Source: Legionellales bacterium
GTDB taxonomy: Bacteria > Pseudomonadota > Gammaproteobacteria > Berkiellales > Berkiellaceae
Assembly (NCBI GenBank): GCA_947475765.1
Contig: CANJMM010000016.1
Location: 1-40,226 of the forward strand
Direction of reading: 5' to 3'
Length of the DNA stretch: 40,226 bases
This document shows, piece by piece, positions 27,495-33,372 of the stretch. The position numbers and the translations under genes are program-made. The stretch's first letter is position 1. Each line of letters begins with the position of its first letter. The notes beneath the pieces were generated by a model. The model was not told the DNA's origin. It saw only the letters and a program-made list of their open reading frames with translations, and ran no database searches.

Positions 27495-28709
27495 TTAAAC
27501 ATACTGTCCTGCAGCCCAACCAGATGACCAGGCCCATTGAAAATTATAGCCTCCCAGCCACCCGGTTACATCCAACACTTCCCCAATAAAATATAAGCCT
27601 TTTATTTTATTGGCTTCAAAAGTTTTAGAAGAAATGCCCTGTGTGTCTACCCCCCCAATGGTTACTTCCGCTGTACGATAACCTTCTGTGCCATTAGGGG
27701 TTATTTGAAAGGCTTGAAAAAGTTCTGCTATTTTTTCAACCTCACGATGTGTAATCGCCTGTAAGCAATGGTGCTCTAATGGATGATTGGCTAATAAAAT
27801 ACTCACCAGTCTTTTAGGCAAACACTGCCCCAACATTTCTTTTAAACTGCTATTGGGTTTTTGTTTTTGAGCTTGTTTAAATATAGCCAAGAATAAAACA
27901 TCGGGCAAAAAATTAAGCTTGAGCTTTTGCCCAGGCAACCAATAGTTCGATATTTGTAACATAGCGGGCCCACTTAAGCCTCTATGTGTAAATAACATAT
28001 TTTCTCTAAACGCGGTCTCTCCTACCGAAACCACACTGTCACAGGCCACCCCAGATAACACTTCAAATTTATGCTTATCGTCAAGATGTAAGGTAAAGGG
28101 CACTAAGCCCGCTCGCACAGGTACAATATTTAAACCAAATTGTTCTGCTATTTTATAACCAAAAGGGGTTGCCCCCATCGTGGGAATAGACAAGCCGCCT
28201 GTTGCTATGACCAAAGATTGAGCATAATACACTTCTTGATTGCTAAGCTGAACTTCAAAAAAACCCTTATCAGTTTGTTTAATTTGCCCTATCATGCTAT
28301 TTAAATAAATCTTTACCCCTGCATGCGCACATTCTGCTAATAACATATCCAATATGTCTTTGGCTTTATCATCACAAAATAATTGACCTAATTTTTTCTC
28401 ATGGAAAGGGATTTTATAGCGCTTAACTAGCTCAATAAAATCCCACTGTGTATATCTCTTGAGCGCTGAGTGACAAAAATGAAGATTTTGTGACAAATAT
28501 TTATGAGGATGAATTTCTTGATTGGTAAAATTACATCGCCCTCCCCCTGACATGAGAATTTTTTTACCTGGCTTATTGCTATGATCTAAGACCAGCACTT
28601 GACGGCCTCGTTTGCCTGCTTCCATTGCGCACATTAAGCCAGCAGCGCCTGCACCAATAATGATCACGTCTTTTTTATTATTATTATTATTATTATGATT
28701 ATTTTGCAT
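27495..28709 (-). CDS. HI0933/YhiN-family flavoprotein
   Basis: A 404-residue FAD-dependent oxidoreductase-like protein of the HI0933 family; its reaction is not well known. It has the Rossmann GAGAAGLMCA (18-27), the family signature KKILMSGGGRCNFTN (50-64), an ATGGLSIPTMGATPFG segment and the C-terminal GEVLDVTGWLGGYNFQWAWSSG. The N-terminus carries a run of Asn, made by seven tandem TTA units (28675-28695 on the plus strand), which is not part of the conserved fold. It is convergent with the MidA gene, separated by two bases. Confidence 0.9.
   Translation of the reverse strand: MQNNHNNNNNNKKDVIIIGAGAAGLMCAMEAGKRGRQVLVLDHSNKPGKKILMSGGGRCNFTNQEIHPHKYLSQNLHFCHSALKRYTQWDFIELVKRYKIPFHEKKLGQLFCDDKAKDILDMLLAECAHAGVKIYLNSMIGQIKQTDKGFFEVQLSNQEVYYAQSLVIATGGLSIPTMGATPFGYKIAEQFGLNIVPVRAGLVPFTLHLDDKHKFEVLSGVACDSVVSVGETAFRENMLFTHRGLSGPAMLQISNYWLPGQKLKLNFLPDVLFLAIFKQAQKQKPNSSLKEMLGQCLPKRLVSILLANHPLEHHCLQAITHREVEKIAELFQAFQITPNGTEGYRTAEVTIGGVDTQGISSKTFEANKIKGLYFIGEVLDVTGWLGGYNFQWAWSSGWAAGQYV
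28675..28695. repeat. Trinucleotide repeat (TTA)7 in the 5' end of the HI0933-family gene
   Basis: Seven perfect TTA units encode the Asn run near the start of the flavoprotein. Expansion or loss would keep the frame and only change the disordered N-terminus. Confidence 0.9.
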
Positions 28710-29033: not shown

Positions 29034-29879
29034 TTATCCACAGATTTTTTTAAATAAATCGGGTTGACTTATGGCTATAAAATGTGGATTAGTCAAACTT
29101 TTTTTAGTGTTGTAACTAAGTTGGTTTCCTGATAGATCGCTTAATGCACCACCGGCTTCTGTCAAAATAAGATGGCCTGCGGCAATATCCCATTCTGAAG
29201 TAGGACCCAGCCTAAGATACACATCTGCCTTATCTTCGGCTATTTTTGCCAGCTTCCAACTGCTCCCTAAAGAACTCAAATGATAAGCTTCTAACTTTCT
29301 TAAAATACTTTCTAATGCCAATACACCATGGCGACGACTGGAAATAACGCGCGTCAAAAAAGTGGGATGATGGATATCCACCTTAGCAATATTCAGCTGC
29401 TTTGCGGGGGTATCTTTTTTTGCTTCTAAAAAAGCCCCTTTGCCTTCTTGTGCATAATATAATAAATCATAATAAGGAATATATATCACCCCTAATATAG
29501 GCCGATTTTCATGAATCAAGGCAATATTCACGCTAAATTCATGGGTATGTGCCATAAATTCTTTGGTGCCATCTAAAGGATCGACCAGCCAAATCGTGGT
29601 GGCCTCTAATCTACTATCAGAAATAGCTTGATCTTCTTCTGAAATAATCGCCGCATCTAAACCATATTTTTTATTGAGCTGAGCTAGGCCCAATATTATT
29701 AACTCATGCGCTAATTTATCGGCTTGAGTTACTGGGCTTTTATCGGCTTTGAATTCAACTTGAGACAAGCATAAAACCAGCTCATCGGCTTTTTCATAAA
29801 TACTTAAAATAGCCTTGCCCGCCAAACGGGCAAGTAGTGAAACTTCTTTAAGTAAATCTGGCGCTAAATCTAAGTACAT
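29034..29879 (-). CDS. cysQ: 3'(2'),5'-bisphosphate nucleotidase
   Basis: The 281-residue inositol-monophosphatase-type enzyme dephosphorylates PAP, a by-product of sulfate assimilation and of acyl-carrier-protein holo-formation. It has the metal-binding WLVDPLDGTKEF (about 94-105), a SEEDQ upstream with a catalytic Glu, and WDIAAGHLILTEAGG at the C-terminal side. These fit CysQ rather than SuhB, where the second motif differs. No cys genes lie nearby. It follows the pseudo-HtpX gene by 19 bases on the same strand and may be co-transcribed with it. Confidence 0.93.
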   Translation of the reverse strand: MYLDLAPDLLKEVSLLARLAGKAILSIYEKADELVLCLSQVEFKADKSPVTQADKLAHELIILGLAQLNKKYGLDAAIISEEDQAISDSRLEATTIWLVDPLDGTKEFMAHTHEFSVNIALIHENRPILGVIYIPYYDLLYYAQEGKGAFLEAKKDTPAKQLNIAKVDIHHPTFLTRVISSRRHGVLALESILRKLEAYHLSSLGSSWKLAKIAEDKADVYLRLGPTSEWDIAAGHLILTEAGGALSDLSGNQLSYNTKKSLTNPHFIAISQPDLFKKICG

Positions 29880-29898
29880 GCGCTTATTTTAGCAGAAA

Positions 29899-31251
29899 TT
29901 ACCTGTATGTAGGCCTATAACGTTTTGCCTCAAGTCTTGCGCTTCTTCTTACAGGTTTAGGTTCAGGTGCGACTACAGGAGCAGGTGCTGCTAGAAAAAG
30001 CAATGGTTGAGGGCCAACCGGGACTAAATCAGGCAGATCTGCATCTTCAGGAGCATGAGCATGAGCACCATGAGCATGACCTGCAGTTAAGCTTTCAACA
30101 TAAACCCTATCGCATAAATTATAGCAATCTTGATCTGCCGGCATTTGCCTAACAGGGGCATTTTCAGCCATATAAGCCCGTATGGCTGCAAGGCGATTTC
30201 CCATACGCGGCACAGCAGAATATAACTCTTTAAAATAAGCAGCAAAACGCATGACGGCATTATCCATGGCTTGCAAGAGCACATAACCTGTTTTATCTTC
30301 AGCAGGAGGGCTGTCTTCACGAACCTTTTTTTCAAAATTGTGCCAGGCACGCTTTAAAAAGGCAAAAGGACCTGTATAGACTGAATCCGGCAAGTTGGCC
30401 TCTGGCGCAGCAGCAGGCGGTACCTTACCCTTATTATTGGGCGCATTTAAATAGCTTAAGGCATCTATTAAGTCTTGACCGTAACCACATTCAGCCACTA
30501 TTTTATCTGCTTGATAATAGGCATTCGTACGAGACATGGCATTAATCAGCAATTGACCAAAAGGCCCGACTAACAAGCCTATTAATTTAAGCGGCAAGAA
30601 TTCATGTTCTTTAAAGCTTTTTAATAATTGTCCAAAATCCATGGCAATGGCGACTATCATGCCTGAAAAAGTTGAGCGTAATTTAATTTGGGCCAAGGCT
30701 TGTAAAATTAAGGCATTTAACACCAAAACGTTGCCATCCAAGTGGCTAAAAGTGCCCGTGGCAATGGCAATCATGGCTTTACCTGGATTACGGCCCGTCA
30801 CCACTAATTTATGATGTGCCTCAACAAAAGTGCCTAATCGAACAGGAGGTAAAGGCGTATCCCTTGGATATTTGGCATTAATGACGCCTCTTAAATGATT
30901 CACGACTTTAGCAAGATCATATAAGACTGCTTCGCCATGAGCATTCGAAAGGCCTACCTCATAAAGTGTATCTCCGCTATCATCAGAAGTGTAGGTTAAT
31001 CCTAACATCGCCGTTTGTATTTCACGTGAAAACCAAAAATTACTAAAGGCGGTTAATGCAGTCACCGCCATAACGGGTAAAATGGCCGCAATACCAGATA
31101 AAAATACCGTGCTGGCCACTATCACCGCAGCTATCATGGCTAAAGAAAGTACAGTCCTAAAATCAGGTAAAATATGATAAAAATAAGATTGTTTGCTGGT
31201 CGATTTACGGGTAAGGTATGTAATAAATTGCGTGATTGGTCCTGCTGCCAT
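29899..31251 (-). CDS. HtpX-like M48 protein lacking catalytic residues (pseudo-protease)
   Basis: The start at 31251 is chosen because GAGGA lies 8 bases before it; a longer frame opening at 31347 has no ribosome-binding site. The 450-residue protein has two hydrophobic segments (about 35-70), then FWFSREIQTAMLG (72-84) and VTGRNPGKAMIAIATG (151-166), which match HtpX/M48 peptidases closely. Where HtpX has the zinc motif HEXXH, this protein reads QALAQ (184-188): both His are Gln and the Glu is Ala. The downstream SR-x-x-EY-x-AD motif reads SRTNAYYQAD (240-249), so the third zinc ligand is lost too. A C-terminal extension of about 180 residues is Ala/Pro/His-rich and ends in basic RRSARLEAKRYRP. 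It probably binds rather than cuts substrates. Confidence 0.8.
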   Translation of the reverse strand: MAAGPITQFITYLTRKSTSKQSYFYHILPDFRTVLSLAMIAAVIVASTVFLSGIAAILPVMAVTALTAFSNFWFSREIQTAMLGLTYTSDDSGDTLYEVGLSNAHGEAVLYDLAKVVNHLRGVINAKYPRDTPLPPVRLGTFVEAHHKLVVTGRNPGKAMIAIATGTFSHLDGNVLVLNALILQALAQIKLRSTFSGMIVAIAMDFGQLLKSFKEHEFLPLKLIGLLVGPFGQLLINAMSRTNAYYQADKIVAECGYGQDLIDALSYLNAPNNKGKVPPAAAPEANLPDSVYTGPFAFLKRAWHNFEKKVREDSPPAEDKTGYVLLQAMDNAVMRFAAYFKELYSAVPRMGNRLAAIRAYMAENAPVRQMPADQDCYNLCDRVYVESLTAGHAHGAHAHAPEDADLPDLVPVGPQPLLFLAAPAPVVAPEPKPVRRSARLEAKRYRPTYR

Positions 31252-31368
31252 AAGTAAGATCCTCAAAGATAAGCTAGTTAGTTGTGCAAAAACTCTCTTT
31301 CCCTGAGAGAATAACTTTAATAGACGGGGGGTAGCCGTGTCAACCATGAAGGCGTAAAATTCCAGTCC

Positions 31369-33372
31369 ATGTCAGCAAAAAAAATAAATTTAGTGTTAAA
31401 AATCGCCTTAGGCTATCCTTTGCCTCTATTTGATTATTTGGCACCGCATGATACCTCTATAGAAAATATCTGCATTGGCATGCGCATTTGTGTGCCATTT
31501 GGTAAAAAAGAAGTCATCGGCCTTATTGTCGAAAAAGGCGAATCTACACTCCCTCCCTCTAAGCTCAAAGCAGCATTGAGCTTACCCGATACTTTTGCTT
31601 TATTTTCACCCGAAATGATTACCTGGTTCAAACAGGCTGCCAATTATTATCACCACCCCATTGCTGAAGTGATATTTACAGGCTTACCTGCTTTACTCAA
31701 AAAAAATCTGCCTATTGCTCAATTGCTCAGCACCCGAAAAAGCCGCCTGGTACAGGCTACACCCCCTAAACTCGAGCATAACCCCTTAATCTTAACGCAA
31801 GAACAAGAACAAGCAATTTCGGCTATTAGCTCAAATTTAAGCCAATTTACCTGTTATTTGCTTAAAGGCATTACGGGATCGGGTAAAACAGAAGTATATT
31901 TACAAGCCATTGAACGCTGCCTACCTAAACAAGTGTTAATTTTAATTCCTGAAATTGCCCTTGCTCCTCAAACCTGTCAACGCGTAATTGATAGATTTGG
32001 TGAAAAAGCCGCTATTTATCACTCTCAGCTCTCCCCTGTTAAAAAATTAAGCGCTTGGCATGCGGCATTTTCTTCAGAAAAACAAATTATAATCGGCACG
32101 CGTTCTGCTTTATTCTTGCCCTTTAAAAACTTAGGCATGATAATGATTGACGAAGAACATGATATTTCGTTTAAACAACAAGAAGGTTTCTTATTTTCAG
32201 CTAGAGACATGGCCATATGGCGGGCAAAATTAGCGAATATCCCTATTGTTTTAGGCTCGGCAACCCCTAGCCTTGAAAGCTTACACAATACTCACTTAAA
32301 TCGGTTTGTGCCTTTGGTTTTATCCGAGCGTCCTAATGAGGCAATGTTACCTAGCGTAAAACTCATTGATACCAATCTGGAAAAATTAAATCAAGGCTTA
32401 TCTCACGCCTTAATTCTTGCCATGAAAAAAGCCTTGGCTTCCCATCAACAAAGCTTATTATTTATTAATCGAAGAGGCTATGCCCCCACAATTATGTGTG
32501 TTCAGTGCTTTTGGCAGGCAAAATGCCCTCACTGTGCAGGGCGTTTAACCTATCATTTACAATATGAACGATTACGCTGTCATGTCTGTGTAGGGGCATA
32601 TCAGCCTTTTCCCACACACTGCCCTAGTTGTCAAAGCCCTAAAATTAAAGCCATTGGCCTAGGCACAGAAAGAGTAGAAAGCGCCTTATCCCACTTATTT
32701 CCAAATGCACAGATTGCTCGTATCGACAGCGACACCATTACTACCCCTAAAAAATTAAACACAGCTTTAGACAAAATTCATAGCGGTGAAAGCCAAATCT
32801 TAATCGGCACACAATTATTAGCCAAAGGCCATCATTTTCCTAATGTCACGGTCGTGGGCATACTTCATATTGATAGCGGCTTATATAGCACCGATTTTCG
32901 AGCAACCGAACGTACCGCCCAATTAATTACCCAAGTCTCTGGACGTGCTGGCAGAGCGAATTTGCCTGGCACGGTCTATTTGCAAACCGCCTTACCCCAA
33001 CACCCCCTATTACAGGCTATCTTATTGGGTGGCTATGATGCTTTTGCCCGCTATATTCTGAACGAACGGCAACAAACCTATTTGCCCCCTTTTAGTCATT
33101 TGGCCATTATTCGGGCAAAAGGCAAATCCAAAGAAGCTTTAGTCGAAACACTCAGTTATTTAAAATCACATTTAACTTGCCAGCAAGAAGTTAAGTTGCT
33201 TGGCCCAATTATGTCTGATTCCAGCCGCCATAAAGATTTCCATCAAGCCCAATTATGGGTACTCGCAGATAAAAGAAGTGCATTGCAGCTTACTTTAAAA
33301 CAACTCAGTGATTTTAGCCCCCCTTATTCAGTCAAATTAGCCATAGATGTAGACCCACTTTCTACCTATTAG
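31369..33372 (+). CDS. priA: Primosomal helicase PriA
   Basis: PriA restarts collapsed replication forks. The 667-residue protein has an N-terminal DNA-binding region, Walker A GITGSGKTEV (167-176), the DEEH helicase box (IDEEHD), a Cys-rich zinc insert with eight cysteines (CVQC, CPHC, CHVC, CPSC) and the helicase motif GRAGRAN. It is somewhat shorter than E. coli PriA (732) but complete in motifs. Divergent from the HtpX-like gene with which it shares a 117-base promoter region. Confidence 0.96.
   Translation: MSAKKINLVLKIALGYPLPLFDYLAPHDTSIENICIGMRICVPFGKKEVIGLIVEKGESTLPPSKLKAALSLPDTFALFSPEMITWFKQAANYYHHPIAEVIFTGLPALLKKNLPIAQLLSTRKSRLVQATPPKLEHNPLILTQEQEQAISAISSNLSQFTCYLLKGITGSGKTEVYLQAIERCLPKQVLILIPEIALAPQTCQRVIDRFGEKAAIYHSQLSPVKKLSAWHAAFSSEKQIIIGTRSALFLPFKNLGMIMIDEEHDISFKQQEGFLFSARDMAIWRAKLANIPIVLGSATPSLESLHNTHLNRFVPLVLSERPNEAMLPSVKLIDTNLEKLNQGLSHALILAMKKALASHQQSLLFINRRGYAPTIMCVQCFWQAKCPHCAGRLTYHLQYERLRCHVCVGAYQPFPTHCPSCQSPKIKAIGLGTERVESALSHLFPNAQIARIDSDTITTPKKLNTALDKIHSGESQILIGTQLLAKGHHFPNVTVVGILHIDSGLYSTDFRATERTAQLITQVSGRAGRANLPGTVYLQTALPQHPLLQAILLGGYDAFARYILNERQQTYLPPFSHLAIIRAKGKSKEALVETLSYLKSHLTCQQEVKLLGPIMSDSSRHKDFHQAQLWVLADKRSALQLTLKQLSDFSPPYSVKLAIDVDPLSTY

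Follow-up and report, generated by a model that had tools for sequence, protein, structure and literature searches.

The gene at 29899-31251 of the window, the 40,226-nt stretch of Berkiellaceae DNA analysed here, very probably encodes a pseudopeptidase derived from the M48 metallopeptidase HtpX. This protein (pseudo-HtpX) would be an inner-membrane descendant of HtpX in which neither the catalytic glutamate nor any of the four zinc ligands remains, and it would have been retained for a non-proteolytic task. The fuller statement, that it is an integral inner-membrane pseudopeptidase kept as a non-cutting binder that feeds FtsH, is given slightly less than an even chance. The features of the locus are listed in Table 1.

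Table 1. Features of the pseudo-HtpX locus (positions in the window)
Feature	Position	Strand	Description	Basis
Pseudo-HtpX gene	29899..31251	minus	450 codons + stop, ATG at 31251	open frame, GAGG-type ribosome-binding site, family orthologues
N-terminal hydrophobic hairpin, aa 26-75	31027..31176	minus	ends in FWFS	hydropathy, HtpX alignment, helix in model
FWFS, aa 72-75	31027-31038	minus		sequence
GRNPGK, aa 153-158	30778..30795	minus	loop after HtpX edge strand; retained	alignments
QALAQ, aa 184-188	30688..30702	minus	replaces HExxH; CAA GCC TTG GCC CAA	alignment, codons
SRTNAYYQAD, aa 240-249	30505..30534	minus	replaces SRxREYxAD; third-ligand Glu to Ala	alignment
VPRMGNR	30193..30213	minus	replaces HPx4R active-site plug; fourth-ligand His to Val, Pro and Arg retained	
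C-terminal tail, about aa 352-450	29902..30198	minus	Ala/Pro rich, basic end; no HtpX counterpart	alignment
HAHGAHAH	30055..30078	minus	histidine cluster in tail	sequence, alignment
cysQ-like gene	29034..29879	minus	next gene downstream, spacing about 20 bases	NCBIfam CysQ E 2.8e-66, slightly below cut-off; synteny
priA	31369..33372	plus	divergent upstream neighbour, constant landmark	TIGR00595 over cut-off; synteny

The first-pass annotation of this DNA had described an intact frame of 450 codons with a ribosome-binding site, and this description was confirmed. The ATG at 31251 is the better start, as it is preceded by TTTGAGGATCTTACTT, with GAGG nine bases before the ATG; the first ATG of the frame would give a longer product of 482 aa (29899..31347) and is without support. 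The best of seven promoter-like sites was found at 31343-31314, and the number of such sites was not above that in shuffled sequences.

The motif columns were read from a joint alignment with 12 active HtpX and HtpX-like proteins, which is nearly gap-free around the motifs. FWFS, TGRNP and the SR...AD region had been recognised earlier as matching HtpX-type M48 peptidases, and both the alignment and the profile-profile comparison agree with that assignment. The NAFATGRNP region of HtpX reads KLVVTGRNPGK in pseudo-HtpX. The HExxH columns hold Q-A-L-A-Q, the third-ligand Glu is replaced by A and the His of the STHPP plug by V. In the published description of BepA (PMC7950410), the zinc ligands are the two HExxH histidines, a Glu and the plug His; these residues are described there as conserved across all four E. 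coli M48 proteins, and HPx4R as an active-site plug motif whose His is the fourth ligand. Read against the aligned columns, this ligand set indicates that the window protein retains none of the four ligands and has also lost the catalytic Glu. The replacement of HEXXH by QALAQ and the loss of the third ligand had been reported in the first-pass annotation, and the loss extends to the plug His.

An alternative local alignment that restores the zinc ligands was sought and none was found. No other HExxH is present in the frame of pseudo-HtpX, and the only such string across the six frames of 29700-31450, HEHEH, lies on the opposite strand. HEHSH in one orthologue (L005) was likewise rejected as a zinc motif, since it sits in the His-rich tail of that protein, outside the core. 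A sequencing error behind QALAQ is unlikely, because G001, a second genome of the same genus, has the same QALAQ string and likewise uses CAA for the two former histidines. HtpX has four membrane helices; in pseudo-HtpX, hydropathy analysis clearly showed the N-terminal hairpin, and the further segments within aa 171-241 were weaker.

Profile comparisons point to common descent with HtpX. The alignment of eight orthologues matched that of the 12 HtpX-type proteins with a probability of 99.3% (hhalign, profile-profile; E 1.3e-20), and the NCBIfam HtpX models detected the window protein at E 1.3e-8 and 5.5e-6, with a score of 34.3 that is far below the curated cut-off of 422. The best of these models matched four of the eight orthologues at E 0.01 or better. 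The Pfam M48 model gave a marginal hit to the window protein (E 0.13; 12.5 bits vs a cut-off of 20.3) and matched one of the eight orthologues at E 0.1 or better. Additionally, the family profile found Ste24p in the PDB (E 0.0012), over the third-ligand region.

Structure prediction, which had been proposed as a check of the HtpX relationship, gave a divided result. A first model, built from the window protein and three orthologues without active HtpX rows, reached a pLDDT of 38.2 and matched no M48 structure. For a second AlphaFold model, the tail was cut and three active HtpX rows from viral contigs were added to the alignment. This model was of intermediate confidence, with a mean pLDDT of 56.6 and blocks of 65-81 between residues 111 and 190, and its best structural matches were Ste24p (Foldseek E 7.1e-4; Z 10.7, rmsd 4.9 A over 191 residues), HtpX (domain 3cqb; Z 10.5, rmsd 2.7 A over 96 residues) and BepA. 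The matches ranked 1-15 were all M48-type metallopeptidases, selecase/abylysin or BlaR1. The second model is consistent with an M48 fold, and is a test of consistency and not an independent proof because its alignment included active HtpX rows. By homology and, with this reservation, by predicted fold, the protein belongs to the M48 superfamily by descent; it lacks the features of active HtpX/M48 enzymes, namely HExxH, the third Glu, the plug His and scores above the curated cut-offs.

A profile search identified an orthologue in 8 of the 14 genomes of the taxonomic family to which the window belongs. The carriers comprise the two g1 genomes (g1 being the window's genus), four of the five in g5 and one genome each from g4 and g8, the only one of its genus in either case; the g5 genome without an orthologue (G013) is only 61% complete. 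Neither HExxH His, nor the plug His, is kept in any of the eight proteins. At the five positions that correspond to His, Glu, His, third Glu and plug His, the orthologues read QAQAV, QAQAA, MQKEN, MEKEE, KEKEK, KEKEV, AQKEN and VEKHT. The HExxH columns read QALAQ in the two g1 genomes and MQLVK, MELVK, KELVK (two), AQMTK and VELLK in the other six. Hence QALAQ was ruled out as a signature of the whole family; the suggested check of its conservation in relatives found the string in the two genomes of one genus only. The third-ligand Glu, which is Ala in the window protein, is kept in five orthologues. Lys occupies the second-His position in six, including all five with the third Glu, and the resulting Lys-Glu pair is possibly a salt bridge in place of zinc.

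In a tree of M48 proteins, the eight orthologues formed one clade (support 100/99) on the HtpX side, and a branch with 99/94 support split the HtpX-like rows and the pseudo clade from the LoiP/BepA-like rows. Each of the remaining 59 M48 rows of the tree has HExxH. The simplest account would be that the histidines were lost once, in a common ancestor within the family. The two glutamates would have been lost additionally in the window's genus. Among 274 genomes of the class, the search for wider orthologues gave seven matches outside the family, all partial and all seven with HExxH. In 398 genomes of the phylum, 74 partial matches were obtained besides the window's own, and the best 2 of the 74 are active HtpX. 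No relative of pseudo-HtpX was found in viral contigs. In a PriA tree, the carriers were set apart by a branch supported at 76/87, and long branches meet, so that support for the carriers having arisen only once in the species tree is weak.

Every one of the eight carriers has the gene at a site between the cysQ-like gene and priA, with genus-specific genes inserted. In the non-carriers G007, G006 and G003, the corresponding block is present without the gene; the G006 contig ends before priA. The names bioA, bioD and tex at the loci of the family are those we take to be correct from our own reading of the sequences, and the other names are from NCBIfam. In the window, pseudo-HtpX and cysQ may be co-transcribed because of the short spacing and the shared direction. 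In genus g5, an S9-like peptidase/esterase gene of about 620 aa is next downstream of the pseudo-HtpX gene (L064 6805-8682, L060 12443-14308, L061 11692-13554 and L062 11501-13375), with one further frame between the two genes in L060. A flavoprotein-like gene is found at 27495-28709 of the window; its start reads MQNNHNNNNNNKK and its product has an N-terminal asparagine run.

The frames are open in all eight orthologues, and the TGA reported for G012 is the gene's own stop at the match end. Between the window and G001, pN/pS was 0.42 in the first 310 residues, 0.52 in the next 60 and 0.79 in the tail; the whole-gene value was 0.50 and the six neighbours ranged from 0.17 to 0.52 (five of six at 0.17-0.32). 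With synonymous sites nearly saturated (dS about 1.7), all of these values are approximate. The core thus appears to be under purifying selection and maintained, and the tail loosely constrained. One clade, one chromosomal site, open frames and purifying selection together indicate an old, vertically inherited pseudopeptidase. The earlier proposals of a kept, HtpX-derived pseudo-enzyme and of a family of its own are both upheld by this distribution.

Retention at the same chromosomal spot suggests a new, non-cutting job for the dead protease. We propose that pseudo-HtpX still binds misassembled or unpaired membrane proteins without cutting them, since it has kept its membrane hairpin together with the M48 core and cleft scaffold. 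It might then hold these proteins or hand them to FtsH as an adaptor; FtsH is proposed as the receiver because it is the one protease degrading membrane proteins that was found in nearly all these genomes. This mechanism is a tentative one, as is the predicted membrane topology, and we put the chance of the mechanism somewhat below even. The mechanism draws on the rhomboid YqgP of B. subtilis, which is reported to be a substrate adaptor of FtsH independently of its own protease activity and to have a cytosolic domain that binds Mn and Zn (PMC7231995). By the same report, the adaptor role of YqgP needs an unobstructed active site, which counts against the analogy. In addition, HtpX-type substrate binding may be lost, because the substrate-side strand NAFA is altered to KLVV.

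FtsH was found in 13 of the 14 genomes, including all eight carriers, and the copy in the window's genome matched PF01434 over the cut-off (E 3.6e-75). The pseudo-HtpX gene is not adjacent to ftsH, and the presence of FtsH is permissive evidence only because non-carriers have FtsH equally. Besides the normal FtsH, a second, divergent M41 (FtsH-like) match was present in G004, G005, G008, G010, G012 and G013, in frames of 553 to 1124 aa, and G005 had a third.

The main rival is an FtsH-independent scaffold, in which the dead core would be a structural or assembly subunit of one membrane complex and hold a partner. We consider this unlikely and still the strongest of the alternatives. The retained hydrophobic segments and core, the vertical inheritance, new conserved positions outside the HtpX motifs (e.g., DKTG near aa 319-322) and a YDVIGPxGxG motif in the tail of five orthologues would all suit such a subunit. 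However, no partner gene adjoins pseudo-HtpX in all genomes, and the gene between pseudo-HtpX and cysQ differs by genus.

The tail bears on a second rival, in which the protein is delivered or exposed to the host, e.g., as a Dot/Icm substrate with its signal in the tail. The tail had been annotated as a new region of 180 residues with a basic end; the basic end was confirmed (net charge +7 in the last 20 residues of the window protein), but the length is about 100 residues. From aa 371 on, it is the least conserved part of the protein, with 26% identity to the nearest relative, and its charge varies among orthologues. Clusters of at least three His per eight residues occur in four of the eight orthologues (shuffle p 0.0006 to 0.02) and the other four have one or two, so a His-rich tail was rejected as a defining feature of the family. 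From two published Berkiella genomes, dot/icm genes are reported along with putative effectors in the hundreds (PMC9803151), which would fit delivery to a host. Nevertheless, the suggested role of the tail in host contact gained no support from its poor conservation and varying charge, and inheritance at one common housekeeping locus speaks against a recently acquired effector, which makes host delivery quite improbable.

A strict iRhom-type function, in which pseudo-HtpX would regulate an active HtpX paralogue of its own cell or act as its decoy, depends on the M48 content of the genomes. Canonical HtpX was found in 4 of the 14 genomes, all of them g5 carriers, so it co-occurs with pseudo-HtpX in half of the eight carriers. 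The window's genome is 98.9% complete, and its M48 matches are two LoiP/BepA-like genes (392 and 520 aa), for each of which the nearest NCBIfam model is that of BepA. The HtpX profile found no HtpX in this genome and was answered by these two genes only (E 7e-9 and 4e-7), so the HtpX whose substrates, according to the first-pass annotation, this protein might bind is missing from the window's own cell. G008 (100% complete, 1.4 Mb) gave no M48 match besides its divergent pseudo-HtpX. A decoy or regulator of HtpX is not the general function, because the window's genome is without HtpX and G008 without any other M48, and we regard the strict iRhom type as very unlikely. The sister genome G001 has two HtpX-like HELGH paralogues (L048 and L020) that the window's genome lacks. 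Other genomes of the family are rich in M48, with up to 12 matches in G010 (3.6 Mb), nine in G011 and eight in G004, including types of 577-663 aa with HEFSH and of 357-373 aa with HEMGH or HEMSH.

It is slightly less probable still that the protein is an enzyme with different chemistry, its former metal site having become a metal-free active site. The recurrent Lys at the second His, present in all five orthologues that keep the third Glu, might hint at such a site, but Lys and Glu are better read as the putative salt bridge, and the Q-A-Q-A of the window's genus at four of the positions leaves no shared reactive group. A decaying gene without function is hardly credible, since the frame is open in eight of eight deep relatives and the core (pN/pS 0.42), GRNPGK and the membrane segments are retained, even if the protein changes faster than most of its neighbours.

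The reading we prefer thus remains an HtpX-derived binder that may feed FtsH. In an extended and improbable form, an HtpX-type metallopeptidase would have become a Derlin/YqgP-like membrane-protein receptor for FtsH independently. In this scenario, a Lys-Glu pair would first have taken the place of zinc in the former metal site, neutral residues would have followed in the window's genus, and some members might sense metal with their His-rich cytosolic tail. Should a retained inactive clade have arisen from HtpX, the conversion of quality-control proteases into receptors might be possible more generally. The family offers a natural experiment, as its carriers fall into those that have HtpX, those that lack it and those that lack all other M48 genes. 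A search of the open-licence PMC literature returned no paper combining HtpX with pseudoprotease or pseudoenzyme, or with both M48 and 'catalytically inactive'.

Compared with HtpX (M48B; E. coli HtpX and Vibrio domain 3cqb), pseudo-HtpX shares the hairpin ending in FWFS, the (T)GRNP loop, the helix that bears HExxH in HtpX, the SR..Y..AD region and the F/Y-S..P plug region. It differs in the absence of HExxH, the third Glu and the plug His, in the altered NAFA strand, in a longer linker before GRNP and in an extra C-terminal region and tail. Ste24p/ZMPSTE24, the best solved-structure match of both the model and the family profile, has only the M48 core in common with pseudo-HtpX; these proteins are active zinc enzymes with a chamber and seven membrane helices.

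Pseudoproteases as a kind are well known, and those of membranes are known mainly from the rhomboid superfamily (iRhoms and Derlins). Like pseudo-HtpX, iRhoms are membrane pseudoproteases that arose from an active family and carry added domains. Unlike pseudo-HtpX, they have the rhomboid fold, are eukaryotic and have an active protease, ADAM17, as their target, whereas an active HtpX is missing from the window's genome. YqgP has an unrelated fold, is still an active protease and has a reported link to FtsH where that of pseudo-HtpX is only inferred. Like the adaptor that pseudo-HtpX is proposed to be, it is a membrane peptidase fold whose adaptor role does not need catalysis (PMC7231995), and its cytosolic Mn/Zn-binding domain may be compared with the His cluster of pseudo-HtpX, which might sense metal.
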